A DNA stretch of 64,000 nt from a virus, in IMG/VR virus record IMGVR_UViG_3300013113_000285, positions 1 through 64,000 of that record. One strand, given 5' to 3'. The notes beneath the pieces are model-generated. The model was not told where the DNA came from. It saw nothing but the letters and a program-made list of their open reading frames with translations, and ran no database searches. Of the stretch, positions 4,037-60,668 are shown in pieces. The position numbers and the translations under genes were made by a program. Each line of letters starts with the position of its first letter. The first letter of the stretch is position 1.

Positions 4037-4053
4037 TTAGGGCATCCTCCGCA

Positions 4054-4073
4054 TTTTCTCATAGTAAGTAGTC
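4054..4073 (-). promoter_or_regulatory. Putative late promoter before neck gene (variant element)
   Basis: GACTACTTACTATGAGAAAA on the minus strand differs from the scaffold and sheath copies by two substitutions and one inserted base. It sits just after the capsid/neck boundary and 19 bases upstream of the neck start. Confidence 0.42.
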
Positions 4074-4083
4074 GGGAAGATAC

Positions 4084-4113
4084 AAAAAAAGCCCCAACCT
4101 GATGGAAGGGGCT
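4084..4113 (-). terminator. Rho-independent terminator after the major capsid gene
   Basis: Minus strand AGCCCC-TTCC-ATCA-GGTT-GGGGCT followed by TTTTTT, with a U/U internal mismatch in the stem. It is placed 40 bases after the capsid stop; a small hairpin TTAGAGT..ACTCTAA precedes it. Confidence 0.88.
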
Positions 4114-4151
4114 CATTTGTTAGAGTAAAACTCTAAAAGCTACTGTTCGAA

Positions 4152-7035: not shown

Positions 7036-7083
7036 TTAGTCTTTCTCCTCACTTTTGTGCGTTATATATGAAAAAGTCGGGGT

Positions 7084-7101
7084 TTTTCTCTAATAAATAG
7101 T
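7084..7101 (-). promoter_or_regulatory. Putative late promoter before scaffold and capsid (shared 18-base element)
   Basis: ACTATTTATTAGAGAAAA on the minus strand, after CTATAAG. It is the exact partner of the sheath copy and lies between the fibre terminator and the scaffold gene. Confidence 0.52.
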
Positions 7102-7134
7102 CTTATAGAGCGTGAAACGCCAATTTTGATATAA

Positions 7135-7163
7135 TAAAAAAAAAGGGGGGCAAAAGCCCCCCC
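7135..7163 (-). terminator. Strong rho-independent terminator after fibre 2
   Basis: Minus strand GGGGGGC-TTTT-GCCCCCC followed by a run of nine T. It ends the fibre 2 transcript; the rest of the 170-base gap holds an additional small inverted repeat (CAAAACT..AGTTTTG) and the scaffold promoter element. Confidence 0.92.
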
Positions 7164-7205
7164 AAAACTATTCAGTTTTGTGTATTATACTTGCTAAAAA
7201 GCAAA

Positions 7206-21264: not shown

Positions 21265-21657
21265 TTATTTCTCCTTGTTTGGACGCCAGCCAGTCTTCCA
21301 CCTGTCCTCACGACCTTCAACATAATCTACGTAGCAGTTGAAACAGCACTCGAACTTGCTCATGTATAAGTCGTCCTGCTTATTGAATGAATAAGTGGAA
21401 CAAACGGGGCAAGTCCTATTACTATCCTTCATAAGTAGTTTCTTAGTGATAAAAACACCTTCCGCTACTTCTACTTTATCTAACTTGCCTTCAGCCTCTC
21501 TTTGCTTTAGAGCCGCCAAACGAAGTTTTTCCAAGTGTTCTTCTTCTTGCTCGTCAGTCCAACCTTGGGCTGGAGACTTGACAGCCTCTTCTCCATACTT
21601 CTCTTTTATCTGCTTTTCTATCTTAGCAATTAAGTCCCAGTTTTTCTTTTCAGTCAT
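21265..21657 (-). CDS. Zinc-finger protein of unknown function
   Basis: The product has 130 residues. I chose the ATG inside the ATGA overlap with the previous gene; the longer frame would begin with cysteine- and tyrosine-rich residues that read the other gene out of phase. The N-terminal 75 residues are helical and charged. The C-terminal half has C83-x2-C86 (RTCPVCSTYS) and C105-x2-C108 (CCFNCYVDYVEGRED), a four-cysteine zinc site. The ending RWKTGWRPNKEK is basic. It stands between the lysis cassette and the terminase genes; DNA binding or an adaptor role in packaging or transcription is possible. Confidence 0.78.
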   Translation of the reverse strand: MTEKKNWDLIAKIEKQIKEKYGEEAVKSPAQGWTDEQEEEHLEKLRLAALKQREAEGKLDKVEVAEGVFITKKLLMKDSNRTCPVCSTYSFNKQDDLYMSKFECCFNCYVDYVEGREDRWKTGWRPNKEK

Positions 21658-22079
21658 TTGTTCACCGCATAAGTTATTCCAATAGTTGTAGCCACACCAA
21701 GCGCAAAAGAAGCAATAGCAACAATGGGTGTGAACCAAGAGTTGTTATGCTCTTCTATTACTTCTTCTAACTTGCTTATTCTTCTGTTTTTTACCTCGAC
21801 AAATTGTTTCAACCCTTCTACCTCAGCATTGAGAATCTTCTTGTCTTTTTGACATAGAAGGTCTATTTCTCCTTTTTCCAACTTGCACTTATTAGCGCAA
21901 AGCTCGACCTCTAAGCGGAGGTCTGCTTCTATCTTGGAAAGCGCACCTTGAGTTAGCAAAATGCCCGTGAAGGGTGCTTTCTCGCCCTTCTTGAGCCCTG
22001 TTATCTTTAGTTCTTGACTTATAGCATAGCTAGGTAGAAAAGTCAAGCATAAACTTATAAAAATGCTTAATAGTTTCAT
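21654..22079 (-). CDS. Exported, membrane-anchored lysis-cassette protein, unknown
   Basis: This is a 141-residue protein with a signal peptide (residues 1-20, KLLSIFISLCLTFLPSYA; no lipobox cysteine, so signal peptidase I), a periplasmic domain beginning KGEKAPFTGILLTQGALSKI, a coiled-coil stretch (about 80-112) and a C-terminal membrane segment (about 116-138, FTPIVAIASFALGVATTIGI). Cysteines at 61, 65 and 76 could form disulfides. The gene starts directly after the spanin stop. It could partner the i-spanin, or be a one-gene spanin variant, which normally is a lipoprotein; the missing lipobox argues against the latter. I have seen similar starts near phage lysis genes, without an assigned role. 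Confidence 0.7.
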   Translation of the reverse strand: MKLLSIFISLCLTFLPSYAISQELKITGLKKGEKAPFTGILLTQGALSKIEADLRLEVELCANKCKLEKGEIDLLCQKDKKILNAEVEGLKQFVEVKNRRISKLEEVIEEHNNSWFTPIVAIASFALGVATTIGITYAVNK

Positions 22080-22445
22080 TTACACCCTTTCAAGGTTGAA
22101 CCTTTTGGCGAAGTCATCAGCGATTTCTTCTATTGGTTTTTCTTCGTTCTTTTTTATGGTTTCCATAAGCTTGGCTCTATTCTCGAACTTTATTTCTTCT
22201 TCTTTCATTTTATGCTTTTCCTGAAGAAGTTGCAAGGACTTTTTATAGTCTTCGAGAATTTTCTTTTCTTTCTCTCTTCTTTCTTCGAGAAGTTTGAGTT
22301 GTGCCTCATAGTCTTCTCTCTGTGCCTTCATCATTTCCTTCAGGCTTGTCTTTCCTTGACTGCCTGCGAAATAACTAACAATAACTAAAAGAGCAGCGAA
22401 AGGAACAACCCAGTTTGTTTTTAGCCAAATCCAGAACTTCTGCAT
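22080..22445 (-). CDS. Inner-membrane spanin-like (Rz-like) protein
   Basis: The 121-residue protein has an N-terminal in-out membrane anchor at about 9-28 (WVVPFAALLVIVSYFAGSQG), preceded by basic residues, then a periplasmic coiled coil from about 34 to 105 made of Glu/Lys heptads (YEAQLKLLEERREKEKKILE). This is the architecture of the lambda Rz i-spanin, which links inner and outer membranes and fuses them at the end of lysis. Overlap with the candidate holin gene and adjacency to an exported protein support a lysis cassette. Family assignment rests on architecture, since spanins diverge quickly. Confidence 0.72.
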   Translation of the reverse strand: MQKFWIWLKTNWVVPFAALLVIVSYFAGSQGKTSLKEMMKAQREDYEAQLKLLEERREKEKKILEDYKKSLQLLQEKHKMKEEEIKFENRAKLMETIKKNEEKPIEEIADDFAKRFNLERV

Positions 22446-22639
22446 TATCCCTTCAAACTCTTTACTAAATCAACTGCTGCCTGTGAACCAATGTAAACCA
22501 TTGTAAGCTGCGTCCAGTCCGAAGAAGAAAGAACTCCGTATAATGCTAGTGTTGATGCTGCAATCCATGCAAGGAACTTACGAGAGATAAATCTCTCAAC
22601 GTATTTGTCTGCGAATGCTTTTACTTGCTCTGCCATCAT
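22445..22639 (-). CDS. Small membrane protein, holin candidate
   Basis: The product is 63 or 64 residues: there are two adjacent ATG codons, and the second (22636) has the better eight-base spacing from GGAGG. A short amphipathic helix (AEQVKAFADKYVERF) precedes a hydrophobic helix at about 21-37 (FLAWIAASTLALYGVL) and a weaker one near 45-60, ending in a basic tail (SLKG). Size, topology and position before two spanin-like genes fit a small holin, which would open the inner membrane at lysis, but there is no sequence proof. The ribosome binding site is locked in a hairpin, and a late-promoter-like element lies upstream. The stop overlaps the next start (TAATG). Confidence 0.7.
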   Translation of the reverse strand: MMAEQVKAFADKYVERFISRKFLAWIAASTLALYGVLSSSDWTQLTMVYIGSQAAVDLVKSLKG

Positions 22640-22644
22640 ATTAT

Positions 22645-22674
22645 CCTCCTAGAGGGGACATGCCCCTGTAGGAG
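22645..22674 (-). promoter_or_regulatory. Hairpin hiding the holin ribosome binding site
   Basis: The minus strand reads CTCCTA-C-AGGGG-CATGT-CCCCT-C-TAGGAG, two arms of eleven paired bases with one C/C mismatch and a five-base loop. The 3' arm contains most of the AGGAGG for the first lysis gene. Transcripts from upstream would fold and block translation; no U-tract follows, so it is not a terminator. Confidence 0.72.
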
Positions 22675-22683
22675 TAAATAGTT
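22675..22683 (-). promoter_or_regulatory. Late-promoter-like element AACTATTTA before the lysis cassette
   Basis: AACTATTTA ends one base before the RBS-hiding hairpin. If it acts as a -10 element, transcription would start about seven bases downstream, inside the 5' arm of that hairpin, leaving the ribosome binding site free. Confidence 0.5.
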
Positions 22684-25600
22684 TACTGATTCACAAAAGC
22701 GAACTTGTCTTTCTTCTCAATAGAAATCTGCAAGTCCACTGCGTCCTTGAGGGAGTCGAGGTGGGAAATAAGAATAACATTTTTGAAGTGAGATTTCACC
22801 AGTTCAAGAATTCTGATAAAACCTTCCATGTTTTCTTCGTCGAGTGCTGTGCCTGGTTCATCGAGAATGAAGACGTCTCCAATTGGAAGAGAAGACACAT
22901 TAATAAACGCAAGACGAATAGCCATGGAAGCAATGGTCTTTTCTGCACCAGAACCCATCTCCAAAGGGCGAGGCTCAAAGGATGGGTGCTTGATAAGAAC
23001 ATTCAGCCTTCTCTCATCGTTCTCCAAGAAAACTTCGAAGTTAACAACATTAGTAAGAATCTTCGCTATCTCGTCATTGATAATAGGAAGCTCTTTCTTG
23101 ATGATATCGAGCGAGACACCATTGGAGCCCATTGCTTTTCTGTAAAGGTCGTAAGCAGAGTACTCTTTCTGGAAAGTTGCGAGGTCAAGTTCCTGAACCT
23201 GCATCTCATTCAGTCTGCGTTCGTGATTTCCCTGAAGTTTGCTAAGCTTCTTTGTCTCTTCAGAGCACTTATCCAACTTTTTCTTTAGCTGTTGTTTGCT
23301 GTTTAGAAGTTCTCCTCGCTCTCTTGTAAGCTTTGCAAACTCAAGAATAGTTTTTTCATTCTCCTCAAAAACTCTAATCTCTTCTTGCGACTTATTTATG
23401 AGGTCTCGAATTCTAACAATAGTTGTCTTGTTCTGAGCTACCTGAAGTTCAAACTTATTTATCTCTTCCTGCTTTTCTCTTCTTCGCTCAACAAGCTGCT
23501 GATGTTGCTCTAAATATCTAGCAACTGTTTCAGGTTCTATCTCATTTACTTTTGTTTGCAAGCTGTCGAGTTCTTTTTTGAACTTCTTATCATCAGCAAG
23601 AATCTTTTTCTCACTGTCGATAGCAGAGTGAGCGTGTTTGATAAACTTACAATTTGGAAAACTATCCCCACAAGGAACCTGCTGGAGTAAAAGTTTGTTT
23701 TTGGAAATATCGCTCAACATAGATGTCGCTGACTGATTTTTCATCTCTACTTCATTAATAGTAAGCTGTAGCTGGCTTATCTCTGTCTCTTTTTCCTTCC
23801 AACTATTGTAGTCAAACTCTTTCATAAAGTTGTCTATCTTGCCAACAACGCCCTCGTTTAGGACAATAATTTCTTCCAAGGACTTATTATTTTCTTGAAG
23901 AGATTCTAACTCGCTTGTATGCTTTTCTACACTCTGCTTTTCCGACTCAACATCAATAACTCTCTGAACTGGTGCAGAGTCAAGCCTTGTTTCAATTCTG
24001 ATTATCTCGCTTGTGACCTCTTCTAGCTCGGATGTCATGCTTTCGCAAATCTTTTCTTGATTGCGAAGGTCCATCGATGCAGTCTCAATAAGAGCTTCCA
24101 ACTCCATCTTCAGTGCTTCGTAGCCGAGGTCGCCAGCAGAGTCTAAAAGATATTTTATCTTGCCGTCGAGGTCGCTAGACTCCTCTTTTGCAATCTTATC
24201 TTTTGCATCAAAGAGTTCAAGGTCAAGAAACTTCGCAAGAATCTCTTTTCTCTTTGTTGAACCCTCGGCAATAAAGGCAAGTGATTCCAACTGAGATGAT
24301 AGCGAGGTCATAAGGAAGTCTTCCACTGAACTAAAGAACTTTCTGATGTTTTCGTCAGTTTGAGCCCGAGTCTCTCCATTGAGAGGTAGTGCTTCTTCAG
24401 TTGCTAAGTCATAGACTGAGAACTCTACGTTGGTCTTTACTTCTTCTGTCTCTTCGCCCTTTAGACGCTTGATGTATTTATCAGCAGTTCTTTCAATGGT
24501 GTAGTGTCGGTTGTCTAACTCAATAACAACTTTACCCCAAGCAGAAGACCTATTCTGATTAACAATGTCGATAGACTTTCTATTTCGCTTGGTAGTTGTG
24601 TTAAACATAACCCAGAGCAAACTATCGATAATAGAAGACTTTCCTGAAAAGTTCTTTCCGAAGATTCCAATAATGCCTCCGAGGTTATCGAAGTCTATCT
24701 TATTACCCTCGCCGTAGTTAAAGAGGTTGTTCCACTCAAGAGTCTTGAGGCTCCAACTTACATTTCGATAGGAAGCTCGCTCCTGACTTTCAGCTTGTGC
24801 GTTGATTCTTCTGTTTATCTCCATGACTTCTTTCAAGACATTCTTATCTTCTTCTGTGTCTGAAAGATAGTCGTCCAAGTACTCCTTGATAAGTCTTTCC
24901 TGAACTGCGATGTCTCGAAGGTTGTACTTCTCAAAGTCTTCATCAAGATTGACCCGAGAGCGAGAACCAGTTGCTCTGTTTAGAAAAGTAACTGACTCTG
25001 GTTTGAACTTAGTCTTTGCAATATCGATTGCCTTACGAACTTTCTCAATAGGAAGAGTGTGGTTCGTAACAATGCGAAGACGAGCACCTACAGGTGGCTT
25101 GGCTGCTTTTGGAAGTCGTCCAGTCTTTGTAAGTTCAATGGTAATAAAAGGACGTGGGTTCTCTAAAACAAAGTGTCGAACGTCAAAAGTGTCTTTATCT
25201 TTGATGTCCCAGATAAGAAAACCTTTATCGTTTGTCTCTCCAAAGTTTTGCTGAACTGTCGAACCACAATAACGAACTCGACCTTCCGTGTCTAAGATTT
25301 GGTTCGTCTTGTGAATGTCTCCAAGGAAAGCGAAGTCGTGCCCTTCGAAGATACCAACGTCATCTTCACCGTGGTCCATTACCCATCCAATATCCGTTTC
25401 GACACCAGCAATAGCACCATGATAAAGAGCGATATTAATAGATTTTTCATTAGAAGGCTCCACCCAGTTGTCTCTGTCAAATACAGAGAGTACATTAAAG
25501 GTCAAACCCTTTTGAGGTGAAAACTCTCCAGAGTTCTTGAGATAGTGAATAGTGTCCTTGCCTAAAGCTCTTACCACTGGAGTGAGAGCATCTTGACGAC

Positions 25601-25883
25601 TTGAGTTTTTCAGGTTGCCATCGTGGTTGCCCGCAATAAGAACAAGTGGTGCAATGTCCGATAGGCTATCAAAGAAGTCAGCAGCCATTTGAAAAAACTC
25701 TGGTGATAATTGAGTCTTTGTGTGAGCTACATCTCCACAATGAACGATGTAGTCTGGCTTCTCCTCACGAAGAATAGAATACATTTGCTCGAAGCAAGCA
25801 CGATAGTCCTCGTGATATTTCAGATTTCTGATGTGAGTATCACTCACATGAGCCAGACGAAAACTCTTATTTTTCTTAGCCAT
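22683..25883 (-). CDS. Single-chain SbcD-SbcC (Mre11-Rad50; T4 gp47-gp46) recombination nuclease/ATPase fusion
   Basis: The 1066-residue protein fuses two proteins that are separate in T4. Residues 8-320 are a Mre11/SbcD metallophosphoesterase with HVSDTH, HCGDVAH, AGNHDG and a later GDIH. From about 370 it is Rad50/SbcC: Walker A GKNFSGKSS (about 405-416), two coiled-coil arms, a CX6C hook CGDSFPNC (about 738-745), signature MGSGAEKT (about 977), Walker B VFILDEP (about 1004) and H-loop LISHLDS (about 1041). It should process DNA ends for recombination-dependent replication. The linker region (320-370) is helical and frame-continuous, with no internal start obvious, so this is a real fusion in this sequence. 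It is the last gene of the DNA-metabolism island. Confidence 0.93.
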   Translation of the reverse strand: MAKKNKSFRLAHVSDTHIRNLKYHEDYRACFEQMYSILREEKPDYIVHCGDVAHTKTQLSPEFFQMAADFFDSLSDIAPLVLIAGNHDGNLKNSSRQDALTPVVRALGKDTIHYLKNSGEFSPQKGLTFNVLSVFDRDNWVEPSNEKSINIALYHGAIAGVETDIGWVMDHGEDDVGIFEGHDFAFLGDIHKTNQILDTEGRVRYCGSTVQQNFGETNDKGFLIWDIKDKDTFDVRHFVLENPRPFITIELTKTGRLPKAAKPPVGARLRIVTNHTLPIEKVRKAIDIAKTKFKPESVTFLNRATGSRSRVNLDEDFEKYNLRDIAVQERLIKEYLDDYLSDTEEDKNVLKEVMEINRRINAQAESQERASYRNVSWSLKTLEWNNLFNYGEGNKIDFDNLGGIIGIFGKNFSGKSSIIDSLLWVMFNTTTKRNRKSIDIVNQNRSSAWGKVVIELDNRHYTIERTADKYIKRLKGEETEEVKTNVEFSVYDLATEEALPLNGETRAQTDENIRKFFSSVEDFLMTSLSSQLESLAFIAEGSTKRKEILAKFLDLELFDAKDKIAKEESSDLDGKIKYLLDSAGDLGYEALKMELEALIETASMDLRNQEKICESMTSELEEVTSEIIRIETRLDSAPVQRVIDVESEKQSVEKHTSELESLQENNKSLEEIIVLNEGVVGKIDNFMKEFDYNSWKEKETEISQLQLTINEVEMKNQSATSMLSDISKNKLLLQQVPCGDSFPNCKFIKHAHSAIDSEKKILADDKKFKKELDSLQTKVNEIEPETVARYLEQHQQLVERRREKQEEINKFELQVAQNKTTIVRIRDLINKSQEEIRVFEENEKTILEFAKLTRERGELLNSKQQLKKKLDKCSEETKKLSKLQGNHERRLNEMQVQELDLATFQKEYSAYDLYRKAMGSNGVSLDIIKKELPIINDEIAKILTNVVNFEVFLENDERRLNVLIKHPSFEPRPLEMGSGAEKTIASMAIRLAFINVSSLPIGDVFILDEPGTALDEENMEGFIRILELVKSHFKNVILISHLDSLKDAVDLQISIEKKDKFAFVNQ

Positions 25884-26858: not shown

Positions 26859-26887
26859 AAGATAGCAGAATAAAAATAATAAGTCAA
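26859..26887 (-). promoter_or_regulatory. Sigma70-like (early) promoter before primase
   Basis: Minus strand TTGACT, 17 bases, TATCTT: five of six matches at -35 and four of six at -10 with ideal spacing, in an AT-rich gap between the RuvC-like and primase genes. It could express primase and SbcDC early, before gp55 is made. Confidence 0.5.
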
Positions 26888-36171: not shown

Positions 36172-37184
36172 TAGCAGTCATCTCCGAAAGGTGGTAGTGA
36201 ATCCATGTCCTTGTAGATAGAGCCCATATCACTGTCGCCCTCTGTCTTTCCGCAATCGACTCTAATATAACCTCTCTTGCTGAAGTCTGTTCTATATCCG
36301 AGTCTGCATAAGTCATCGATATCTATCTCGCTATCCAAAAGAACATTCAAGTAATTTTCAATATTTGTTTCGTCAACCTCTACTTCCAAGAGGTCGGACT
36401 GCTTATCAACGTATAATCCATCAACAATATTCTCTTCGTTCTCACGAGTAAAGGATAAAGGAACTAATGTTTCATCAGAGGTGCCCTCTTCTTCCTCTAC
36501 CAAAAAGAATTCTATTTCATAGTTTTCTGACAAAGAGTCTGTATGCAATTCATCTACTTCTATAATAATATCATTGTGCCTTATCATAATTGCGTTGCCA
36601 TTGTCAAAAAACTCTTCTTGAGTAATAGCGTTCGTACCACCAGTTTGTGGGTGTGCGAATTCAACGCCGCCGTTGTCCTCTTCTGATATAACCTTTACTT
36701 TATAGTCAAGGGATTCTAGATTCATTTGAGGTATCGGAAGTACTCTATCGTTGTCCGATGTACTTACGATAAGTTGCTGCTCGAAGTTTGCTCCGTGAAG
36801 AGTAACATCCCAAGAGGGAGCAAAGTCAGAAGCAAGAGAGCTTCGACCGAGAGGAGCAGAGAGAGAATAGTGTCTTTCCTTTGTTGTTTGGAAAGAATCT
36901 TTCAGCTTCTTATCTTGTGTTCTTGACTCTTCTATTTGTTTTTCTATTTCAGTCTCTAAACCAGTATAGGTCGTTTGAACTCTTAATCTTGGAGTCTCAT
37001 CTAGAATTCTTGTTTGAGCGTAGTTTTGCTCTTCTGCCGTTCCAGCATACTCTGCATCATATAGCACGTCATCGTCAAAGAAGGCATAAAAGGTTGGACG
37101 TAACTTTCCCTTTGATAATAGATGCTTGCCATAGGAAGTAAGTTCAATTTCAATAACTTCTTCTTTTTGATTCTTGAAGGTCAT
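36171..37184 (-). CDS. Tail/baseplate-type structural protein, unknown
   Basis: The 337-residue acidic product begins with IELTSYGKHLLSKGKLRPTF and YAFFDDDVLYDAEYAGTAEE, a signature I have seen in large phage structural clusters without an assigned function. The middle is beta-rich; residues about 230-290 are strongly acidic (FFLVEEEEGTSDE). The C-terminus ends with cysteines (FGDDC). It overlaps the giant protein's stop by four bases (ATGA) and runs into the next gene by TAATG, so it is translated as part of a coupled operon with other baseplate-type genes. It is probably a minor virion component attached to the giant LamG protein. Confidence 0.78.
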   Translation of the reverse strand: MTFKNQKEEVIEIELTSYGKHLLSKGKLRPTFYAFFDDDVLYDAEYAGTAEEQNYAQTRILDETPRLRVQTTYTGLETEIEKQIEESRTQDKKLKDSFQTTKERHYSLSAPLGRSSLASDFAPSWDVTLHGANFEQQLIVSTSDNDRVLPIPQMNLESLDYKVKVISEEDNGGVEFAHPQTGGTNAITQEEFFDNGNAIMIRHNDIIIEVDELHTDSLSENYEIEFFLVEEEEGTSDETLVPLSFTRENEENIVDGLYVDKQSDLLEVEVDETNIENYLNVLLDSEIDIDDLCRLGYRTDFSKRGYIRVDCGKTEGDSDMGSIYKDMDSLPPFGDDC

Positions 37185-40100
37185 TCTTCGCTTTCTCCCT
37201 TTCTCTTCCTATATTGTTCTACTGGGTCAATTTCTTTTTCAGCATTTGCTTCGACCTGTATCATTTCCAACATAGTGAAGTAGTCATATGGGTAATTATA
37301 CCCGTACTCAGGTTCTTTCGTACCAACCTCAAAATCAAATTTGAATCTGCTGTCATCTCTTGAGTCTTCAGTCAAGTTGTAATAACTCTTTTCTGCCTTC
37401 TTCTTGACCTTGAAGACCATCCAACGAACACCCTTTGGAATCTCGCCAAGATTACCAAATAATTCGTGCGAGTTGATTTCGTGTGAAATCTCAACAGAGT
37501 CAAGAGACGCTTCCTTAGCAACTTTTGGTTGGAGTCCTTGCCAGATGTTCGACAAGTCTTCTCTATCCAAGGTGTGCTTGAACTCAAAGAAATACATAGC
37601 AAAAGGTGCCTCATCGTAAGTCTCGAAGTCGAAGAGAGGAGGAACATTGTAATTTCTCATACCCTCAATCATATTTGTGATTGAAGTTTGTCTAATCTCT
37701 TCACCAGAATCAGTTGTGTAGATAACTTGATTCTTATCAAAGTCTCTCTTTTGCTTCCTGTATTCAAGATTGTTAATTTTTATAAAGTTTCTATCATCAA
37801 CGTTTATAGTAGCATATACTTGTCTTGACTCTCCACCAAAAAGTCTTTGCTCTGTCGTCAGTGGCTCATCCAAGAAAGGAATCATAAGGACTGCTTCCGA
37901 GATTTCCTTTGAATCGGCAACTCGACCAATCTGTTTTGTTTCTGGAGTAAAGCCGCAGACCTCGATAAGTGAGCCAGTTGTAGCAGATACACCTTGAGGA
38001 AAACTCTCTCTAATAGAGATAGTAACACCCTTTCCATCAACCTGACTACCATATCCCGCCCAAATGCCAGAACCTGTTCTCTTATCTGTAGTGAATCTTT
38101 CCGTATTTGTAGTATCAAGATAAGAAGAAGTGTATTCGTAGTTGTCTGTCGATACTGTTTCTGCCGTATCAGTTGTAATACCAAGTGTCGATAAAGTACC
38201 CTCGTCAGAAGCATTGGATGCCGCAGAGAAGTCAAACAGAGGACACTCGAACTTGCTGTAAATAACCCAAGTATCCAACTCTTCATTGTTAGCTGTAGAA
38301 ATAGAAACTGGATTTCCTTCTTCGTCAAATTCTTGTCTGCTCAAACTTGTCTTACCGAATAGTTCGATACTTGCCGATAGAGGCATTCGAGAACTAAATG
38401 CTACAGAGTCTTGATAATCCCCATCGTCTGGAGATTGAGGCGACCCTGACACAAGACTCTTTCTCACTCTACCAAGAGCTTGATTTGAAAAATACTCATC
38501 AACTTGTGGAGATACTTCCTCTATTTCTGAAAATTTAAAAATTTCATCTAAAGAATACTTCTTTGTTTCGGTTGCTGAAAATGAAACTCTAGCAGTCGTT
38601 GATGCGTAAAAATAAGGAGGAACATAGGGTGCAAACGCAGCATCTGAAATTTTATCCTTCTCATATCCGTAGAAATCAAAACTACCGTCGCCGTCAATCC
38701 ATCTCACTGGTGGTCCGAAATATCTACCTCCGAGACCGCCTGGACTATTCACTGGTAAAAATTCTGAACTCTTATCAAGAACGACGTCCATGTAATAAGT
38801 TGAACCGCTTTCCATCAAATAACCCTCTCCTTGAGGTTTAGCTGAAGCAAAAGAGGACAGACTTTCACCCTTGATAAAAAACTTCGTCGTCTCAGCAATG
38901 AAATTGTTTATAGACAGTTCATACCTATTGTCCTTACTTTGCACTCCCTTTGATATCTCAAAGTACGGATAGTTGTAATTTTTATAGTTTGAATTTGCAG
39001 TATCTTCAGTAACCGTGTATGCGCCTCCAACGGCAGTTATATTATAAGCTACTGGGTCTTCGTAATACGAGGGGTTCATAAGGAAGTGCTGATTTTGATG
39101 CGTCAATATGTGATTAGTCGAATCAGAAACCTGAGTACCGTCTCTACCGTCTAAAAGATATTTGTAAGGGTCGAGAATAGATTCAAATGGCAACCTCTTA
39201 CTAGGAGCCTTTGTAATTATCAAATTCTTTATATTATAATCTACATTGAAATTATTTGGGTCCGTGTAAGAATTCAAAACAGCACCTTCATTAGTAGTTA
39301 TGGATTTACTAAAATCTGTTATCTCAGAAGTAGCTGTTGTTGAATCAACCGATGTTGGCTGAGTAACTAATAATTCCGTAACATCATAAGAACCTGTTCT
39401 ACCGCCAGTATACCACTGCGGAGCCATTCTACTCGAATATTTTAAAACAGAAGTGCCATCTAATGTTTCGTAATATTTCACAGAATCACCAAAGTAGCTT
39501 GGTTCTAACCCACTCTCGTTCGTATAAGACGCCCAGTCGCAAGCAACACCAGCTTTGATTGAGTTATAAAGAATACCAGGAGCAAAGAAGTGTTGTAATG
39601 CCGCCTGGACTGCCTGGTCCTTATAAACTTTTTCATCGTGAATAATATCTGGAGATATTTTTTCAACAAATAAGTTCGCTATCTGCACTACTCTGTCTTG
39701 CGGATAAAACCCTTCATAAGGAAGAAGTTTCTTGATAGCGTTGACTTTTAGCTTCACCGTCTCTGTTGTGTCAACGGCGAGTTCATCGTGTTTTTTATCT
39801 GCCTTCTCAATAAAATTGATATTATCTGTATGAACGTATGAATTGAAGAAGTCACTATCCCATTGACCTTGATTCACAACTTTATCATAACTTGGAACGC
39901 CGATTCTATGCCATACAGGAAGAGATGCTTCTATCAATTGCTGTTCTTCCTTACTATAATTTTCTTCATCAAAATCTGAATACTGTACAAAGGCAGTAGA
40001 ACCTGCTAAAATCTGAATTCTCTGAGCTTCTGCTGCGATATACTGTTCTGCTGTGATTCCAACTTCTGATATTTCAATATCATCAACACCCCAAGTGTCT

Positions 40101-43100
40101 GCGTTAGACGTACTGCTTCCGACTTCTGCATAAGATATCCATCTTAGATAAATTGGATTTGCCTGGCTCTCACCAACGCCGTTTATAGTCCTTGTTACAG
40201 TATTTATTAAATTCCACTGACCAGCGCCTGTAGAGCCTCCTCTATCACCAGCCTGAATAGGTGAACCAGAAGTAGTCCATGTTCCCGCTGTGCCTACCTT
40301 GTATTGTAGCCACAAGTCTTCGCCAGCACTCTTATCTGGAGCCTCGGTCAAGTCATAATCTCCGCTGCTGCGACCTTCATAAACTTTAAAAGAGACTTCG
40401 ATACCAGTTGCAAATACCTGTGGATGCTGTATCCACCTGTAATGGTCATTGGATGCACCTGTTGGACCTGGTGGGTCATCTACATCAGAATGTAAATCTG
40501 AATGTCCTCGAAGACCAAAAACTGAATTTCCAGCGCCTAACGTACTAGCTTGAATGGTTGGTCCGTTAGCTGGAGTTTCATCAGATTCGTTAGTTGTCCA
40601 TCCCAAAGGAACGATATTAGAACCCGATGCGCTTTCAAAATTACTATAATATTTGCCACCAAGGTCAAATTCGCCGTTATCCACAGTCGCAGGAACTGGA
40701 AAGCTATAGACTTGACCTCCCGAGAATATACTTTGATTCACTGTGGTGTCGTATACACAGTTTCCAACGATTTGATTGTTTGCAAGAAGTTCATTAACAT
40801 TATTTGGAATACCGTTGTTAAAAATTGCAGATATAGAATCAGAAGGCAAAATACCTCTAAATATCGTGAACTCGTCAAGGATGCCCTTAAACCTATTTCC
40901 AGTTGAAGCAGAATTATCACGAGACTGATGATAGTTACAGTTTCCTACTACAAAGTTAGAAATAGTAGTAATGCCCTTTAAATTAGCATCTGAGAATGAA
41001 GTATCGTAATCTGCAAACCAAGGTGATGTATCAATGTGTTTCCAATCTCCCATAGGACATGGCGAATAAGCAGAGATAGATTGACCTCCTGAATTTCTTG
41101 AAAGATAATTTGACGAGGTTAATTCTGCTACGTTTACACCATAAAGTTCATCGCCGTTTAACCAAACTTTTATTAGATAATTCAAGTCTTCGCCACCAGA
41201 CGTCGCTGTATAAGAAGGTGGAACTAGTTGAACAACAATGTTATTCATCTTACTCTCACTAAGAAGTGCAATTGACCCGTCTGAATTGAAGAAGGTATAA
41301 ACACTGGAAGTTGCTCCAAGTGTGGTTCCAGGCATACCTTCATCTGGTGTTGCTGTTCCGTCAGACACGACAAAAGTCAAACCAAGGTTTTGATAAGAAG
41401 TGTGTCCGTTCATGTAATAATAGTGGGAGAATAGATTTATTGACCTTTCTCCGCTTCCAGAACCAGCAGACCACATTCCATAAGATGTGTTGGGTGCAAT
41501 TGTTTCTGGTTGTGCCCAAATAGACACGGCGATAGGCATATCATCAAAAGTGGCGTTAGGGTCTACTCTAAAACCATTGGATAGTGGGGGCAAATTATCT
41601 TTCTTAATAGAATTTATATTAACAACAAGATAATCGTTAGTGGTATCTAAATCAAACTTTCCTGCCGCACTAGTCCCATTTTGATATGGCTCAATTGAAG
41701 TATAATTTTCAATACTTGATGCGTTTATTTCTACATTTGAATTTACACTATTAGATATCGAGAAAGTACTATTACTTGGAGCATAAATTGGGTTATATCC
41801 AAAGAACCCTTCTGCATTATTCTTTACAAGTGTATCATCAGAAGACGAAGTTGGATATGCCGTCAGTGTTAGGGAATTATCCTCTTTCTTTATGGAATAA
41901 AAAGAGGAAGTTTCTTTTATGGAAGTTCCACTTGATAATGTGTGAAATTCTCCGTCGTGACTTGCTCCGTCAAGAGTCAAGAAGTCATAATTCTTTGCCC
42001 TAAAATTGCCACCATTCTCTAAAATGTATTTATCCATATGCTCTGATATTCTGAACTCGGATACAAGACCATAGTTTTGTGCTGCAAGCTTGACTTCTTC
42101 TGAGAAAGAGTCATAGTCATTATAAGCTGGTTTATTATCAGAAGTAATTGGTTTTCTATTTATCCAACCTTCAGATTCTTTATAACTCTCGTTATAAGGA
42201 TTATGATAAAGTTGTGGTGAAGGAATTGGTGCCGTCTTATTTCTTTCTATCTCAACAGAAGAATATACAGGTACAATATCACTAGAAGTTGATTCTGCTT
42301 CGCATATCTCCTCAAGCCCTAAGAAACCTACTGGGGTACTTGGGTCATATAATGGATGCTCTGTATCAGTTATATCTAAGTCTTTTCTTGTAATCATATG
42401 GCGTGTTCTGTCTTCGCCCATATAAGTCAAGTCGCCAATTACTTTGTAGTGCTCTTGTTCTGTAGAGCTTGACTGAGAAAAGTGATACCCATCCATAACA
42501 TCTACTGAGAACTTTTGCTTGAATAATCTCTGAAACTCAGGAGTCATTTCATACCCAAGCTTCGTAGTATTAGAGCACTTGACTCTATCGAACATCTTGT
42601 CTTTCCAGAAGAACTTGTAAGTATCAAACTCACTTCTAAATCTTGTCTTCTTTAGACCCACATTCTTGTGCTTTGGAAAGATAAGTTCTCTTGCGACCGA
42701 GCGAGAGAACAGGAGTTCAGCTTTCTTGAATACCTCCATCAAAGTCTCAGAGAATCCACTCTTACTAGTCTTATCAATATCAACTGCCCTTGTCAGTTCT
42801 TCATTAGAAAATACTTCCAAGTTGTTAGAGTAGGAATAGGTCAATGGACTAACATTCTTTCTCAAATCTCCCAAGGTTTCCCCTTGGGCTGCGAGATTTG
42901 AATATTCCTCGTTCAAGACATAGTGAGTGTTTGGTTTGTTCCAGACAACTGCTGGTTCGACAAAAGTACTCACGCTTCTATCTAAGGCTCCATTTCTAGG
43001 AGTTCTGTTGAGTTGAGAATAAGTATTTGTTTTACGCTGACTGATGACCTGGCTGTTTTCTACGTTTCTGATAAATCGATAACCAGCACCTTGGTAGTCT

Positions 43101-46100
43101 GCATAAGATGCTTCGTACCCTTCATCTCCCTTTACAATATGAATATCATCATAGTAACCACTAAAGCGAACTGGTATTGTATCAGCAGCACAATGAGTAT
43201 GAGGGTGCGGATAAGGTGCTTCGCCTGGACGATACTTATCGTAATCAATAGATGCTGTGATAAAAGCATATTGTAAGTCTGACCTTGGAATCTGATGACT
43301 AACATAGGCATTATCATACAGGGTCTTACAACCAGTCTCAAGTGGTCTAAGTGCTGGGTTTCTATTTACTTTATGAACTGAAGGAATACCAGTTGTGGTA
43401 TCTTCATATCCTTGCGAACCTTGATATACACCACTGTGAGTGTAAAGTCTTCTTTGATAATCCAAACGTTCTTCTAAATTTCTAAAATTCACTGAATTAT
43501 AAACACTGAACTCTTCAGCTAATGTATCCAAATAACCTCTAGAGAGAGTTAGTGGGTCACCTGGTGCAGAGAACCTCTCGACAAAAACGTGCTCTGTTCT
43601 TCCTCTGTCTGGTAAAGAAAACTCAACTGTACCCGAAATAAACGGAGAAGTTGTCTCGGTTAGGGATACCCCTTCGTTGCTTACAAACCAACTATTATTC
43701 TTTGTTCTACCTGAAGTTTGTACTATCTCGTAATCTCTCTGGTAATTACCGAAAGGTTGGTCTCCTTCAGTTTTGATATTCTCGATATTTACAGGACGTT
43801 TTGCGAGTTCATCTCTTGTAAATCGAGCAGCAGGAAGATTTGGGTCAACTTCGTGAGGATGTTTCAGTACGCCAGCGTCATCGATATAAAGTTCTGGTCT
43901 ATCTGTCTGTGTCTTATAGAAAATGTGCCTATGCTGATTTCCACCAACCCAAGTCTCAGTAAATGGACCCTGCATTGGTATTTCAGCATCATCACCGTAG
44001 GAATCACTATGTTGTCCTGTAATATATGGAGATGCGTCTCTGAAGTCTGCTCCATAGTAGGGATATGCAAAATCACCATTTAGATATTCTGTAAGACTCG
44101 TCTCTGTGTCTGAGATAGTTATAGTAGTTGTTCTCTTTACCTTATAAAGTTTCTTCCACTCTTCATAAGTTGTTGGATTGTCTCCATTATCAATATCAAT
44201 ACCAACGGTTGCTACACCAGGAATAATTCTAGTTGCTGCTCTAATAAAAGCATTAGGGTCTTTTGTTGTTGGAGAAAAATTGCTTCCACCATGAATGGTT
44301 GGGGCAATATCTAAGTTCAGTCTATAAGGTTTAGCGAGAGCCCTGGTAACATATGCTTGACCTGAATAAGTTGGTCCAGGCACTGCTGGAACGCCAGGTG
44401 ATGCAGGGACCAGTGGAGACTCACGAAGAATCGGCATATCTTGTTCTACACCTGATATAATCTGTGTTCTGCCTGCTGTAGTTCTTGTGGATACTCTTCT
44501 CAATACTTCTCTGTTGTCATCAACATCAGAATCGCCAGTTGTGATGAGTGGGTCGGTACCTTGGACTCTTTGGTCGCCGTATAAGAATTTATCGTCCTCG
44601 ATGGTTTCCGAACCAACAGGTGTATGACCGTCTTTCCAATTGTAAGTAAGTTCATTTATTCCCTTTACAATACCTAGTGGTGGTTCCCCCGCCATTTCCA
44701 AGGTTGGGAACTTCGTCCAATATTTATTTCTCTCTAAGACGTGAGACTCAACCATATTTCGTAAGTCAGCAGAGAAATTGCTTGATACTGGAATAAGCTC
44801 TTGCAGCATTAGTCCGATGGAAGAATCAATCCATTTGTATAATTCGATATACTTCTCTAAACTTGGAACATTATTGACTTTTTCGAAATATCGTGCTCTA
44901 AACTTTTCTAATGCTTTGTATTGTAGTCTATATCTATTGACTGGCTGACCTATCAAATCGTTGAATTCAACAATAGTAGCGAAAAGATTTATCATGTCGT
45001 CAGATATAGTTTGGTACATGCTCTTTTCTGCTGCAAAGAAGTGAGTTACAACTTGTGCGTCTTTTGTAAAAGTTAGGTCATCCTGAGAACGAATCTCAAC
45101 TAAATCTTCCGAGTTGATAACTTCTGGTGTCCTATGTTTTGCAGAATGAATAAACTCCCTGTTAACAATTTGCTTGTCGTCTTCTGTAAAATATACACCC
45201 TTGCCAGTCACCTGATGTCCTACAAGGTCTGTGAACCATCCATAACGTCCTGTGATGATATTATCTGTACTCAGCGTAACTTCATCAACAATAGAAGCCC
45301 CATTCGTAAGCGTACCGTGGTTGGAACCGATATAGTCTTTTATACCATTAGCTCCAGTGGTATCTAAGTCATCGCCCATCTTCCACCAAGAAATGATAGA
45401 ATCCTTATCAGAGAACCTATACATATTCTTCACAGCATTACTGTTGTAAATTTCTGTTACCTCTGCTTGGCTCAATTCTTTATTAAAAATACAGACGTCT
45501 GCTATCTTATCCTCAAATGCTTGACCAGCAGAAGGTGGGTCGTTATTTGTCCTACCAATTATGAGAGGTTCAGAAGTATTTGTCATTCCAGAATATGTAC
45601 CTGAAGTTGATACCGTTGCTGCCTGAGGTGAAGCATCCACATAAAATGTAACGCCTGCTCCAGTGTTACTTCCATCGTAAGTCATTACGACGTTGTGCCA
45701 AGTTGAATTTGTTATCCCAGCAGAGTTTGCAAAAATATTGACTGAGTTGCCGAAGCCGCTGCCGCTGTATAAAAATGCTCGAAGTCTACCAGATTCGTGC
45801 TTGAAAATATATTCAGTTGGTGTTGCGCCGCCAACTGTAGCCTTTGAAACGAAAGGTCCATTGTCGCCACCAGACGCATTCTCAACATAAACCCAAGCTG
45901 AAATTGAAAAAGGTTCGTCATTGCTTGCGCCGTCTGTGAAAGAAAAATCATCACTATCCAAAACTTTAACATGGTCTGTTTGTCCCGCTGTGATATCACC
46001 GTCGAATTGAATCGCTTTTGCGTTTATAGGTATTGTAGATTTATCAAAATCTTCAGACAAGTCATCTACTATGAATTCTCCGCTTCCATCAGTCGTAGTA

Positions 46101-48733
46101 ACCTCGGAAAAGTCCCAGTGCATTGCAAGAGTATCTCTTCTTGGAACCTGTATTGCAGAAGATGTGTCGGTATTGAACTCATCATCAAACATGTATGCTT
46201 CTTCGCTTGGATGCAATCTACCAAAGTTAGATGCGTCGGAAGCGTGTGCTCTCACTTCTTCATCAGTTATATTATCATACCAAAATAAAGTTGATGATAT
46301 CTTTAACCTTGTGTCGTTATCAAGAGATTCTGTCTCTGGGTCGCCTGAAGAGTGAAGGGCACCTATTGATACATATTTATCTTTTGATAACAATGCTCTC
46401 GCATTTGCTTCTGCAATATCTGCTGTTACAAGCTCTTCGTCCTCGACAACATCTGCAAGCATTCTTACGCAGTATAACTCTGCTCTGTAATCGGTCGTAG
46501 AACCCCCAGAAACGACGCCTGAGAGGTTTTTCTTAGGAACCAGTCTAACTGCAAGGTTCCACTTTGAATTTTCATAAACTGACTTAAAATATTCTGTTTG
46601 GAGCGTCTGTCCGTCGAACGTCAAAACAAACCTTACATTCTCAGATAAAGGGTCGCTATTTTCTTTTTCAGCCTTGAGGTCAAATAATTCACTTGCCGAA
46701 TAGCCTGAAGAGTATTCTCCTAGAAATGCAATATGCTCTTCATCATTAGTAGGAGGGTCGTAAGCTGGATGCTCTGTCGATAATCTTTTAGGAAAGATGA
46801 CCTGGGTCTCAAAAGTAAATGAGAGGTTTGGAGTCGCACCGTTGCTGATACCTCTGATGTAAGAAGTTGAATCTGCATTACCAGGGTCAGCCTTTGTGTA
46901 AATAAGACCTTGGTCTCTGTCTGCGTTATTGAAATCAACAAACTTCTTTTTGATAGCAGTCGTTCTTCTAGTGTCCTCTAAGGTATAGTCAGCGCCATCA
47001 GAGTATAAGTTTATCTTTACAAGTTCATCGTCGACACCAAAACAACGGATAAGGTTTCTAAAAGCTTTCTCTGTTCCCTTTGACTTGTAGATATAAGAAA
47101 GGTTGTTATAAATGTTTTGGTAAATGGTGTTCTTTACATCTTGGAGTTTTTCCTCAAATTTCTCTTGTTCTCCTCGTGAGAGAATTTCCTCAAAAGCACT
47201 TGCCTCTGTGAATAAGTCAGGAACAACCATACCTGCTGACTCTAATGTTCTTCTAATAAGAGAATAAGGCTTGCTTGTTCTTTCCTCTAATGTATGGTAC
47301 TCTACTTCTTTGAGGTTTACAAGTTCTTTTATTTTTATTTGTGCTGAGTCGAAGTAGCTGGAAATAACTTGTGAAAGTTCTTTTACGTTCTCGCCCTTCT
47401 CTTCGTCTTCCTCAATAATCCAAGCAGGCATTGTGTGATAGATGCTTGAGTTGTTTGTATAGTCATAAGTCAAGCCTTCCTGCATATAAGTTTCTCTTGC
47501 GGAAACAAAATCAGGATGTGAGGAATAAATAATAGGTTCTTTATCTTCTGAAACCTCAAAGAAGCCAGAAGCGTCGAAAGCTGATACCGTGCTTCTTACC
47601 GAACTGTCGTAGTTCAAAATCTCCCCATTTGATATTCTACCAGAATAATCAAGCACAGTTGAATCGATGTTGGTGTTTCCAGTGATACCCTCATTGAACT
47701 TATAGTAGATGCCAATATCTACTTTTCTGTTCTCTGTGTTGTATTTATTGTCGTCAGTGTTCGTTCCGCCATGAATATGTGTATGCCAGTATCTTCCAAT
47801 TTCCTCTTCTGTTCTTCTTCTTTTCCAAAAACGAAATTCATCGACGTACAAACCGTCAGTCGATAATACCCCATTTGATACTCCGTTTATATTTAGAGAC
47901 AGTTCTGCTTGCGAAACAGAAGTTAAGGCAGTTCCAGTCGTGTTAGTATAAACGAGAGTACCGTTCTTATAGACTTCAAATTTTATCTGCGAACCTTCAT
48001 TTACAGTACAGAATGAAACGTGATTCCAAGAATCTGTAATCAAGTCTGTAATTGTTGTTGATTCTGTTGTAGTATTCCCTGCATCATCTTTAGCGGAAAG
48101 GACTAATAATCCAGTTGAGAAATATGTTGCCGACAATATTGTGGATTGAGCCTCGTTTGCAATATTATAGAGAACCACTCTTCCTGAGAACGTGTTTTCT
48201 AATTTAGCCCAGAACTCTACAGTATTACCCAGACTTCCATCAACATATAAATTAGAATTCCTATAGATTGAGGTGTCCCAAATATTTGAGTTGCCTTGCT
48301 TTACTGGAAACTGTTTGGATAGTTCTTCTTTTTCTCCCTCGATTACGCCAGGCTGGTTGTTTGGACCACCCTTGACGAAAACAGATTGACTTGACCCTAA
48401 GCGGATATGACCTACACTCTTAGGATAAGCATTATCCATAATCCATAGGTCAAGTTCAGAAGAGTCATAGAACCACTTTTCTTTTTCTGATTGCGAACCA
48501 TCATAAGGATAAGTCTGATAGATTCTATTGAAAGAGTCTTCGTAATATTTCTGTGCTGAACCATAGAAGGAAAAGTTCTCTGGTTTAGAATAATCTACGT
48601 GGGAGTGAAATTTATTATTTGCTCTTACGACGTCTCTTGAAAGCTCTGGAGATTCTAAATCAGTTTTGATTTTATCTGCTTGACTTTTTGTAAGAACCTT
48701 GTTACTTTTATTGAATAAGTCTTTTGTACTCAT
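37181..48733 (-). CDS. Giant 3850-residue tail/baseplate protein with several LamG-like domains
   Basis: At 11.5 kb this is the largest gene of the window. The N-terminus contains FSFYGSAQKYYEDSFNRIYQ, a start I associate with huge phage LamG proteins. Concanavalin-like (LamG) domains are readable at about 165-330 (GNTVEFWAKL ... YVDEFRFWKRRRTEEEI), 930-1095 (PFSISAWVYVENA ... IADVCIFNKELSQAEVTEIY) and 2330-2640 (AVSIWAQPETI ... DEFTIFRGILPSDSISAIF); a weaker one may lie at 650-850. Between them are tail-type unknown segments. Such lectin folds usually bind glycans, so a host-contact or peripheral wedge role is likely. No stop or frameshift interrupts it. Its ATGA overlap couples it to the next gene. 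It takes the place where T4 keeps gp7, gp8, gp9 and gp10. Confidence 0.88.
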   Translation of the reverse strand: MSTKDLFNKSNKVLTKSQADKIKTDLESPELSRDVVRANNKFHSHVDYSKPENFSFYGSAQKYYEDSFNRIYQTYPYDGSQSEKEKWFYDSSELDLWIMDNAYPKSVGHIRLGSSQSVFVKGGPNNQPGVIEGEKEELSKQFPVKQGNSNIWDTSIYRNSNLYVDGSLGNTVEFWAKLENTFSGRVVLYNIANEAQSTILSATYFSTGLLVLSAKDDAGNTTTESTTITDLITDSWNHVSFCTVNEGSQIKFEVYKNGTLVYTNTTGTALTSVSQAELSLNINGVSNGVLSTDGLYVDEFRFWKRRRTEEEIGRYWHTHIHGGTNTDDNKYNTENRKVDIGIYYKFNEGITGNTNIDSTVLDYSGRISNGEILNYDSSVRSTVSAFDASGFFEVSEDKEPIIYSSHPDFVSARETYMQEGLTYDYTNNSSIYHTMPAWIIEEDEEKGENVKELSQVISSYFDSAQIKIKELVNLKEVEYHTLEERTSKPYSLIRRTLESAGMVVPDLFTEASAFEEILSRGEQEKFEEKLQDVKNTIYQNIYNNLSYIYKSKGTEKAFRNLIRCFGVDDELVKINLYSDGADYTLEDTRRTTAIKKKFVDFNNADRDQGLIYTKADPGNADSTSYIRGISNGATPNLSFTFETQVIFPKRLSTEHPAYDPPTNDEEHIAFLGEYSSGYSASELFDLKAEKENSDPLSENVRFVLTFDGQTLQTEYFKSVYENSKWNLAVRLVPKKNLSGVVSGGSTTDYRAELYCVRMLADVVEDEELVTADIAEANARALLSKDKYVSIGALHSSGDPETESLDNDTRLKISSTLFWYDNITDEEVRAHASDASNFGRLHPSEEAYMFDDEFNTDTSSAIQVPRRDTLAMHWDFSEVTTTDGSGEFIVDDLSEDFDKSTIPINAKAIQFDGDITAGQTDHVKVLDSDDFSFTDGASNDEPFSISAWVYVENASGGDNGPFVSKATVGGATPTEYIFKHESGRLRAFLYSGSGFGNSVNIFANSAGITNSTWHNVVMTYDGSNTGAGVTFYVDASPQAATVSTSGTYSGMTNTSEPLIIGRTNNDPPSAGQAFEDKIADVCIFNKELSQAEVTEIYNSNAVKNMYRFSDKDSIISWWKMGDDLDTTGANGIKDYIGSNHGTLTNGASIVDEVTLSTDNIITGRYGWFTDLVGHQVTGKGVYFTEDDKQIVNREFIHSAKHRTPEVINSEDLVEIRSQDDLTFTKDAQVVTHFFAAEKSMYQTISDDMINLFATIVEFNDLIGQPVNRYRLQYKALEKFRARYFEKVNNVPSLEKYIELYKWIDSSIGLMLQELIPVSSNFSADLRNMVESHVLERNKYWTKFPTLEMAGEPPLGIVKGINELTYNWKDGHTPVGSETIEDDKFLYGDQRVQGTDPLITTGDSDVDDNREVLRRVSTRTTAGRTQIISGVEQDMPILRESPLVPASPGVPAVPGPTYSGQAYVTRALAKPYRLNLDIAPTIHGGSNFSPTTKDPNAFIRAATRIIPGVATVGIDIDNGDNPTTYEEWKKLYKVKRTTTITISDTETSLTEYLNGDFAYPYYGADFRDASPYITGQHSDSYGDDAEIPMQGPFTETWVGGNQHRHIFYKTQTDRPELYIDDAGVLKHPHEVDPNLPAARFTRDELAKRPVNIENIKTEGDQPFGNYQRDYEIVQTSGRTKNNSWFVSNEGVSLTETTSPFISGTVEFSLPDRGRTEHVFVERFSAPGDPLTLSRGYLDTLAEEFSVYNSVNFRNLEERLDYQRRLYTHSGVYQGSQGYEDTTTGIPSVHKVNRNPALRPLETGCKTLYDNAYVSHQIPRSDLQYAFITASIDYDKYRPGEAPYPHPHTHCAADTIPVRFSGYYDDIHIVKGDEGYEASYADYQGAGYRFIRNVENSQVISQRKTNTYSQLNRTPRNGALDRSVSTFVEPAVVWNKPNTHYVLNEEYSNLAAQGETLGDLRKNVSPLTYSYSNNLEVFSNEELTRAVDIDKTSKSGFSETLMEVFKKAELLFSRSVARELIFPKHKNVGLKKTRFRSEFDTYKFFWKDKMFDRVKCSNTTKLGYEMTPEFQRLFKQKFSVDVMDGYHFSQSSSTEQEHYKVIGDLTYMGEDRTRHMITRKDLDITDTEHPLYDPSTPVGFLGLEEICEAESTSSDIVPVYSSVEIERNKTAPIPSPQLYHNPYNESYKESEGWINRKPITSDNKPAYNDYDSFSEEVKLAAQNYGLVSEFRISEHMDKYILENGGNFRAKNYDFLTLDGASHDGEFHTLSSGTSIKETSSFYSIKKEDNSLTLTAYPTSSSDDTLVKNNAEGFFGYNPIYAPSNSTFSISNSVNSNVEINASSIENYTSIEPYQNGTSAAGKFDLDTTNDYLVVNINSIKKDNLPPLSNGFRVDPNATFDDMPIAVSIWAQPETIAPNTSYGMWSAGSGSGERSINLFSHYYYMNGHTSYQNLGLTFVVSDGTATPDEGMPGTTLGATSSVYTFFNSDGSIALLSESKMNNIVVQLVPPSYTATSGGEDLNYLIKVWLNGDELYGVNVAELTSSNYLSRNSGGQSISAYSPCPMGDWKHIDTSPWFADYDTSFSDANLKGITTISNFVVGNCNYHQSRDNSASTGNRFKGILDEFTIFRGILPSDSISAIFNNGIPNNVNELLANNQIVGNCVYDTTVNQSIFSGGQVYSFPVPATVDNGEFDLGGKYYSNFESASGSNIVPLGWTTNESDETPANGPTIQASTLGAGNSVFGLRGHSDLHSDVDDPPGPTGASNDHYRWIQHPQVFATGIEVSFKVYEGRSSGDYDLTEAPDKSAGEDLWLQYKVGTAGTWTTSGSPIQAGDRGGSTGAGQWNLINTVTRTINGVGESQANPIYLRWISYAEVGSSTSNADTWGVDDIEISEVGITAEQYIAAEAQRIQILAGSTAFVQYSDFDEENYSKEEQQLIEASLPVWHRIGVPSYDKVVNQGQWDSDFFNSYVHTDNINFIEKADKKHDELAVDTTETVKLKVNAIKKLLPYEGFYPQDRVVQIANLFVEKISPDIIHDEKVYKDQAVQAALQHFFAPGILYNSIKAGVACDWASYTNESGLEPSYFGDSVKYYETLDGTSVLKYSSRMAPQWYTGGRTGSYDVTELLVTQPTSVDSTTATSEITDFSKSITTNEGAVLNSYTDPNNFNVDYNIKNLIITKAPSKRLPFESILDPYKYLLDGRDGTQVSDSTNHILTHQNQHFLMNPSYYEDPVAYNITAVGGAYTVTEDTANSNYKNYNYPYFEISKGVQSKDNRYELSINNFIAETTKFFIKGESLSSFASAKPQGEGYLMESGSTYYMDVVLDKSSEFLPVNSPGGLGGRYFGPPVRWIDGDGSFDFYGYEKDKISDAAFAPYVPPYFYASTTARVSFSATETKKYSLDEIFKFSEIEEVSPQVDEYFSNQALGRVRKSLVSGSPQSPDDGDYQDSVAFSSRMPLSASIELFGKTSLSRQEFDEEGNPVSISTANNEELDTWVIYSKFECPLFDFSAASNASDEGTLSTLGITTDTAETVSTDNYEYTSSYLDTTNTERFTTDKRTGSGIWAGYGSQVDGKGVTISIRESFPQGVSATTGSLIEVCGFTPETKQIGRVADSKEISEAVLMIPFLDEPLTTEQRLFGGESRQVYATINVDDRNFIKINNLEYRKQKRDFDKNQVIYTTDSGEEIRQTSITNMIEGMRNYNVPPLFDFETYDEAPFAMYFFEFKHTLDREDLSNIWQGLQPKVAKEASLDSVEISHEINSHELFGNLGEIPKGVRWMVFKVKKKAEKSYYNLTEDSRDDSRFKFDFEVGTKEPEYGYNYPYDYFTMLEMIQVEANAEKEIDPVEQYRKRKGESEE

Positions 48734-52388: not shown

Positions 52389-52403
52389 AGTTTTCTCCTC
52401 CTC

Positions 52404-52411
52404 ATAAATAG
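52404..52411 (-). promoter_or_regulatory. Putative late promoter before gp25
   Basis: CTATTTAT on the minus strand, 16 bases before the gp25 start and directly before GAGGAGGAG. It shares the core of the sheath and scaffold copies but has C instead of A before it. Confidence 0.35.
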
Positions 52412-52427
52412 GACGAACTATTTTATT

Positions 52428-60355: not shown

Positions 60356-60668
60356 CTTCGTCTTTCGCCTCAGAGTTTAGAAGGTCATATATCTCATCCT
60401 TCTCGGAAGCACTAAGACCTTGCTGCTTGTTTTCTTTCTTTTGAAGAAGAGCCGCAAGTTTGACTATTTGTTCATTTGACCTTTGGAGTGTTTCAACATA
60501 TTTAGATGCGATAAGACCGCACTGCTGAATGGTAGATAGTCCATTTTGCTTTGTCATTTCTTGGACTAATTCTGTTAGTAGGTGGGAAGTGATTGCTCTA
60601 TCGGAGCGAATATTTTCTATTGCTTCTCCAATAAACTCTTCAAGATTTTGATTCTTCTTTTTTGCCAT
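60348..60668 (-). CDS. Possible late-transcription co-activator (gp33-like) or unknown small protein
   Basis: The product is 106 residues, starting MAKKKNQNLEEFIGEAIENI. I chose the internal ATG at 60668 because AAGGGA lies 7-8 bases before it. The protein is all-helical by composition and overlaps the end of gp55 by 29 bases. Its C-terminus, SEKDEIYDLLNSEAKDEDG, places a hydrophobic pair inside acidic residues; T4 gp33 and gp55 end in short motifs of that kind which bind the gp45 sliding clamp. Position and size (T4 gp33 is 112 residues) fit gp33, but sequence similarity is not evident to me, so this is inference. The gene overlaps the following tail lysin start by 8 bases. Confidence 0.6.
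   Translation of the reverse strand: MAKKKNQNLEEFIGEAIENIRSDRAITSHLLTELVQEMTKQNGLSTIQQCGLIASKYVETLQRSNEQIVKLAALLQKKENKQQGLSASEKDEIYDLLNSEAKDEDG

Follow-up and report, generated by a model that had tools for sequence, protein, structure and literature searches.

A late-promoter-like motif at the base of a hairpin predicted to mask the ribosome site of a candidate lysis gene in an uncultured marine far-T4 phage

The translational switch on the lysozyme gene e of bacteriophage T4 is a textbook case of gene timing. In gene e, an inhibitory structure arises in the long early transcripts and lowers lysozyme synthesis about 100-fold, and the RNAs given by late promoters just upstream are without the 5' part of this structure; the review that summarises the switch describes it for close T4 relatives only (PMC3014915). 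The ribosome site is likewise masked in an RNA helix in the leaders of T4 soc, gene 49 and I-TevI and of mobE of Aeromonas phage Aeh1, and that of I-TevI also has a late promoter within its 5' part (PMC3014915). None of these four is a lysis gene, and that review does not mention a promoter role for every one of them. The late promoters of T4, KVP40 and S-PM2 are known as TATAAATA and NATAAATA (PMC2984593), and the late promoter of Aeh1 is CTAAATA, starting from -12 (PMC1524935).

The sequence analysed here (the window, 64,000 nucleotides) is part of a 70.9-kb virus record and comes from an uncultured marine T4-like phage of the far-T4 clade. The capsid protein is nearest to those of far T4 relatives, namely Rhodothermus phage RM378, Flavobacterium phage immuto, Microcystis phage Mel-JY01 and uncultured large phages. 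The phage also encodes terminase, portal and baseplate wedge proteins, and a gp55-like late sigma factor (60640-61404, minus strand; phrog_234, E 2.7e-6) of the kind needed to read a gp55-type late promoter. Of 15 related records, 12 have this sigma factor, and the other three are fragments of 17-40 kb. A search with Pfam PF02916, the T4-type gp45 sliding clamp, returned no match and had no working positive control. Two open frames of 3850 and 1911 aa lie among the tail and baseplate genes (37181-48733 and 52428-58163, minus strand).

The locus of interest is on the minus strand, as are all window features given below. It opens with SbcDC, which proved to be a single fused SbcD-SbcC nuclease of 1066 aa (22683-25883), with its TAA stop at 22685-22683. 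This gene stands upstream of a conserved three-gene cassette with which it would form a read-through unit. The first cassette gene (22445-22639) has its start ATG at 22639, a second ATG following immediately, and encodes a 64-aa holin-like protein with one predicted transmembrane segment. No significant Pfam or PHROG match was obtained for this protein, the holin family phrog_1350 appearing at E 0.17-0.5 only; relatives were present at 91 of the 94 loci examined, and none was found among named phages. The second gene (22080-22445) encodes a 121-aa Rz-like i-spanin candidate with an N-terminal transmembrane segment and a charged C-terminal part, the homologues of which match several Rz-like spanin families in PHROG (best E 1.5e-4). 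The third (21654-22079) is predicted to encode a 141-aa protein with a signal-peptide-like N-terminus and a C-terminal transmembrane segment. The label of lysis cassette used in the earlier note is suggested by the second gene and not by any family match of the first. The lysis role of the cassette, and with it the candidate holin function of the 64-aa protein, is assigned by context only.

The minus-strand letters from 22690 to 22637, ATCAGTAAACTATTTACTCCTACAGGGGCATGTCCCCTCTAGGAGGATAATATG, include a hairpin at 22646-22674 with eleven pairs, one C.C mismatch and the loop CATGT, the two arms being CTCCTA.C.AGGGG and CCCCT.C.TAGGAG (bases 22674-22646). TAGGAG at the end of the 3' arm overlaps the Shine-Dalgarno sequence (SD) AGGAGG of the 64-aa gene (22650-22645), such that its first five bases are held in the stem and the final G is unpaired. 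The eleven-pair, one-mismatch hairpin over AGGAGG claimed from inspection of the letters was therefore confirmed, with five of the six SD bases in it. The element ACTATTTA (22682-22675) directly precedes the hairpin; it had been said to end one base upstream, while in fact its last base, 22675, abuts the first paired base, 22674. In addition, the longer string originally noted, AACTATTTA, takes its first A from the end of the SbcDC stop codon.

The 54-nt leader has a minimum free energy of -17.9 kcal/mol (z -2.5), and 4 of 200 shuffles were equally stable. By the shuffle test alone the hairpin is only moderately unusual. Dinucleotide shuffles of single leaders are a weak null by themselves, since a pyrimidine-rich arm retains its pairing with the SD after shuffling. 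Of the 41 gene leaders scored in the window (median 1.6 kcal/mol), this one needs the most energy, 9.5 kcal/mol, to expose its SD. Folding of both transcripts, as the earlier note had proposed, gave a computed cost of 9.5 kcal/mol in the long read-through RNA, in which the SD is paired as in gene e, versus 0.7 kcal/mol in the predicted late RNA; the identical calculation for T4 gene e gave 13.45 and about 4 kcal/mol, respectively. An Rfam search of the window gave no match.

The nature of ACTATTTA was evaluated across the related genomes. In 15 records it occurs 173 times on the coding strand versus 12 on the other (sums over the count table). Of 72 ACTA[AT]TTA sites in the window and two relatives of 185-190 kb, 41 are intergenic versus 2 of 27 for the reversed control, and 41 sit 15-70 bases before a gene start versus 1 of 27. 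The motif precedes the genes for tail sheath, tail tube, gp25-like and gp6-like baseplate proteins and a head-tail adaptor, and the lysis gene, as expected of a gp55-type late promoter on the sense strand, and also that for PhoH. A logo drawn from 146 other, non-lysis leaders, selected solely for CTA[ATC]TTA, displays at its free positions an A before the C (88%), a T after (60%) and a purine peak 13-14 bases downstream of the C. This pattern would fit an element of the -10 type whose C stands at -12, as it does in Aeh1, with ACTATTTA occupying the proposed positions -13 to -6. The same spacing, which is that of Aeh1 and T4 (PMC1524935), puts the predicted late transcription start of the lysis gene at A22669 or A22667.

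The T4 consensus TATAAATA has no sense-strand excess in these genomes, and this sets the element apart from the late promoters of T4, KVP40 and S-PM2, which it resembles in being a short -10-only element without a -35 region, presumably read by gp55. The element is not classed as a T4-consensus promoter because it is ACTA[T/A]TTA, near the Aeh1 CTAAATA. With the latter it has in common the C at -12, TA at -11/-10 and at -7/-6, equal spacing and a diverged gp55; the inner two bases are AA in Aeh1 and TT or AT here. Overall, it behaves as a promoter-like element of the far-T4 clade, sense-oriented throughout these genomes, and is probably active as a promoter. A T4 promoter on the reverse strand, for which the reverse complement of TATAAATA, TATTTATA, was considered, is ruled out by the 173:12 sense bias and by the lack of a TATAAATA sense excess.

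Other leaders in these genomes have related features. In the leader of the gp25-like baseplate gene (leader region 52389-52427), CCTATTTAT abuts the AGGAGG and the start is masked by 6.8 kcal/mol; the start region of T4 gene 25 also has a conserved stem (PMC3014915). Second in the window for masking of the start (7.7 kcal/mol) is the head-tail adaptor-like gene, with ACTACTTA in its leader (4037-4151) and an intrinsic-terminator-like hairpin upstream in the same gap. At 7036-7205, ahead of a 359-aa gene, there is a clear intrinsic-terminator-like site, made of a GGGGGGGC-TTTT-GCCCCCC hairpin followed by nine T, after which a late-promoter motif occurs. Small proteins with a common KITKxxLKxIIKEE-like beginning are encoded at many loci (e.g. 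L082, L180, L195), several of them behind the late motif.

At 26859-26887, ahead of the primase and SbcDC genes, lies a sigma70-like promoter whose -10 is extended (TTGACT-17-TATCTT, with TG in front of the second hexamer). It is conserved in the two closest relatives compared (L014 and L015), and similar elements are present in L080 and L021. The scan from this promoter to the lysis gene disclosed no convincing terminator, the terminator-like sites being no more numerous than expected by chance and located inside genes. The conserved early-type promoter and the lack of a convincing terminator support the predicted early read-through into the cassette.

We therefore propose, at a probability of about 0.75, that a timing switch like that of T4 gene e governs the 64-aa lysis gene. 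In the early phase of infection, sigma70 transcription of the host type from ahead of primase and SbcDC would continue into the lysis cassette, and in this long RNA the bases shortly after the SbcDC stop would pair with the SD of the 64-aa gene and prevent its translation. Late in infection, the gp55-like sigma factor would read ACTATTTA and the RNA would begin within the 5' arm, at about A22669-A22667. This would prevent the six outer pairs from forming and leave the SD free and the lysis gene translated, while the upper AGGGG/CCCCU stem would persist as a small 5'-terminal hairpin. Since the predicted late RNA begins past nearly all of the SD-pairing arm, the SD is predicted to be freed, as in gene e. 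Indeed, the anatomy deduced here appears to match that of T4 gene e, with the SD hidden by a hairpin in the long RNA, a probable late promoter in the region encoding the 5' strand, and a candidate lysis gene downstream. It differs in that the gene e product is a lysozyme while the protein here is a holin-like one of 64 aa, in that the promoter is TATAAATA there and ACTATTTA here, and in that the hairpins vary between relatives. The earlier note had put forward gene e logic at a holin-type gene, and every testable sequence-level prediction of it (the motif, the gp55-like sigma factor, the freed SD, the conserved or rebuilt hairpin, and the early-type promoter followed by no convincing terminator) was supported.

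Comparison with the three nearest relatives (L001-L003) showed ACTATTTACTC unchanged and a stem that differs through paired substitutions and matched deletions. Relative to the window hairpin, six pairs are retained, one is changed on one side (U-A to U-G), two are changed on both sides, two are lost via matched deletions, and none is broken. The pairs were compared by hand on folded structures, since MAFFT put the stem gaps of the four close leaders in the wrong places. In more distant relatives the stems are different ones, with the motif in the loop or 5' arm (L013, L016, L018, L025, L033, L205, L208, L216, L221 and L237) or at the hairpin base (L019). Judged from these sequences, close relatives appear to preserve the hairpin by paired changes and distant ones to rebuild it with other sequences. 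More tentatively, and at slightly less than even odds, a lysis timer with the promoter in the hairpin may have been rebuilt several times with unrelated stems within this one marine far-T4 clade, the late promoter sometimes forming the loop or arm (e.g. L018, L016, L013, L033, L205, L216, L237), as if selection on lysis timing repeatedly fused a late promoter with an anti-SD hairpin. In L040, the late motif and a masked start (3.6 kcal/mol long, 0.1 late) are found at SbcDC itself, which suggests a like arrangement one gene earlier.

The layout extends beyond the single locus first noted to many relatives. Between long and predicted late RNA, masking in the lysis leaders with the motif (n=45) differs by a median of 2.14 kcal/mol versus 0.05 in the other motif leaders (n=146), with p 1.9e-10, or p 0.001 when clustered by protein (10 versus 97 clusters). 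Among 127 distinct SbcDC loci, masking reached 3 kcal/mol or more in 62% of the 42 motif-bearing lysis leaders versus 15% of the 85 without the motif, in which the SD often adjoins or overlaps the stop codon. The motif is present at 35 of 37 loci with a gap of 20-70 bases between SbcDC and the lysis gene, and at none of 33 with a gap of at most 20. Twenty-two masked leaders have an upstream arm, and in each of them the whole arm precedes the predicted start. The motif state changes at least 11 times on the SbcDC tree, and in phylogenetically independent pairs masking goes with the motif by 5.9 to 0.4 on average (median sign-test p 0.06), a borderline support. Swapping the upstream arms between lysis leaders lowered the mean difference modestly, from 2.84 to 2.05 (sd 0.35); this is a poor null, all SDs being alike, and a modest effect is expected if the arms have a common anti-SD character. 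About half of the motif-bearing lysis leaders have a long-late difference below 2 kcal/mol, and the switch is therefore not universal.

The main rival to the timing switch is translational coupling, since ribosomes finishing SbcDC could disturb the 5' arm; they would open it, making translation of the lysis gene dependent on them, and the promoter would be a separate matter. The arm begins eight bases after the SbcDC stop, so that a ribosome ending at 22685 could touch it, it begins 1-21 bases past the stop in most relatives that have the arm beyond the stop, and relatives without the motif often have the SD at most 20 bases from the stop. However, coupling predicts neither the link of motif and hairpin (62% versus 15%) nor the siting of the motif inside many hairpins, the stop-to-arm distance varies, and early synthesis of the lysis protein would be favoured; this explanation is accordingly regarded as unlikely, if the least so of the alternatives.

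That the hairpin arose by chance, or serves only to stabilise the late mRNA at its 5' end without a part in timing, would agree with the modest shuffle result (4/200) and with the upper stem standing at the 5' end of the late RNA; the paired changes in L001-L003, the strongest masking of the window and the excess over the 146 other motif leaders make it quite improbable. Marginally less credit is given to ACTATTTA being an RNA cleavage site, at which a nuclease would release the SD. T4 mRNAs are processed by RNases (PMC3014915), the motif is AU-rich and a cut would yield the identical short RNA, whereas the sense bias, the spacing, the purine peak at the expected start, the Aeh1 likeness and the gp55-like sigma factor of these genomes fit a promoter. 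The G+C-rich stem at a gene end could also call to mind an intrinsic terminator of the SbcDC transcript, but the stem is followed by GATAATATG and not by a T tract, the terminator scan did not list it, and a hairpin with a long T tract sits elsewhere in the window (7036-7205), so this role is most improbable.

If the timing switch is real, gene e logic would operate on a lysis gene unrelated to gene e, from a late promoter that has diverged and through many hairpins unlike one another, which would suggest that lysis timing of this kind is a recurrent solution. The leaders of these phages would offer a natural variant series for testing how much masking is needed, and ACTA[T/A]TTA may be usable as a late-promoter motif for annotating this large group of uncultured marine phages.
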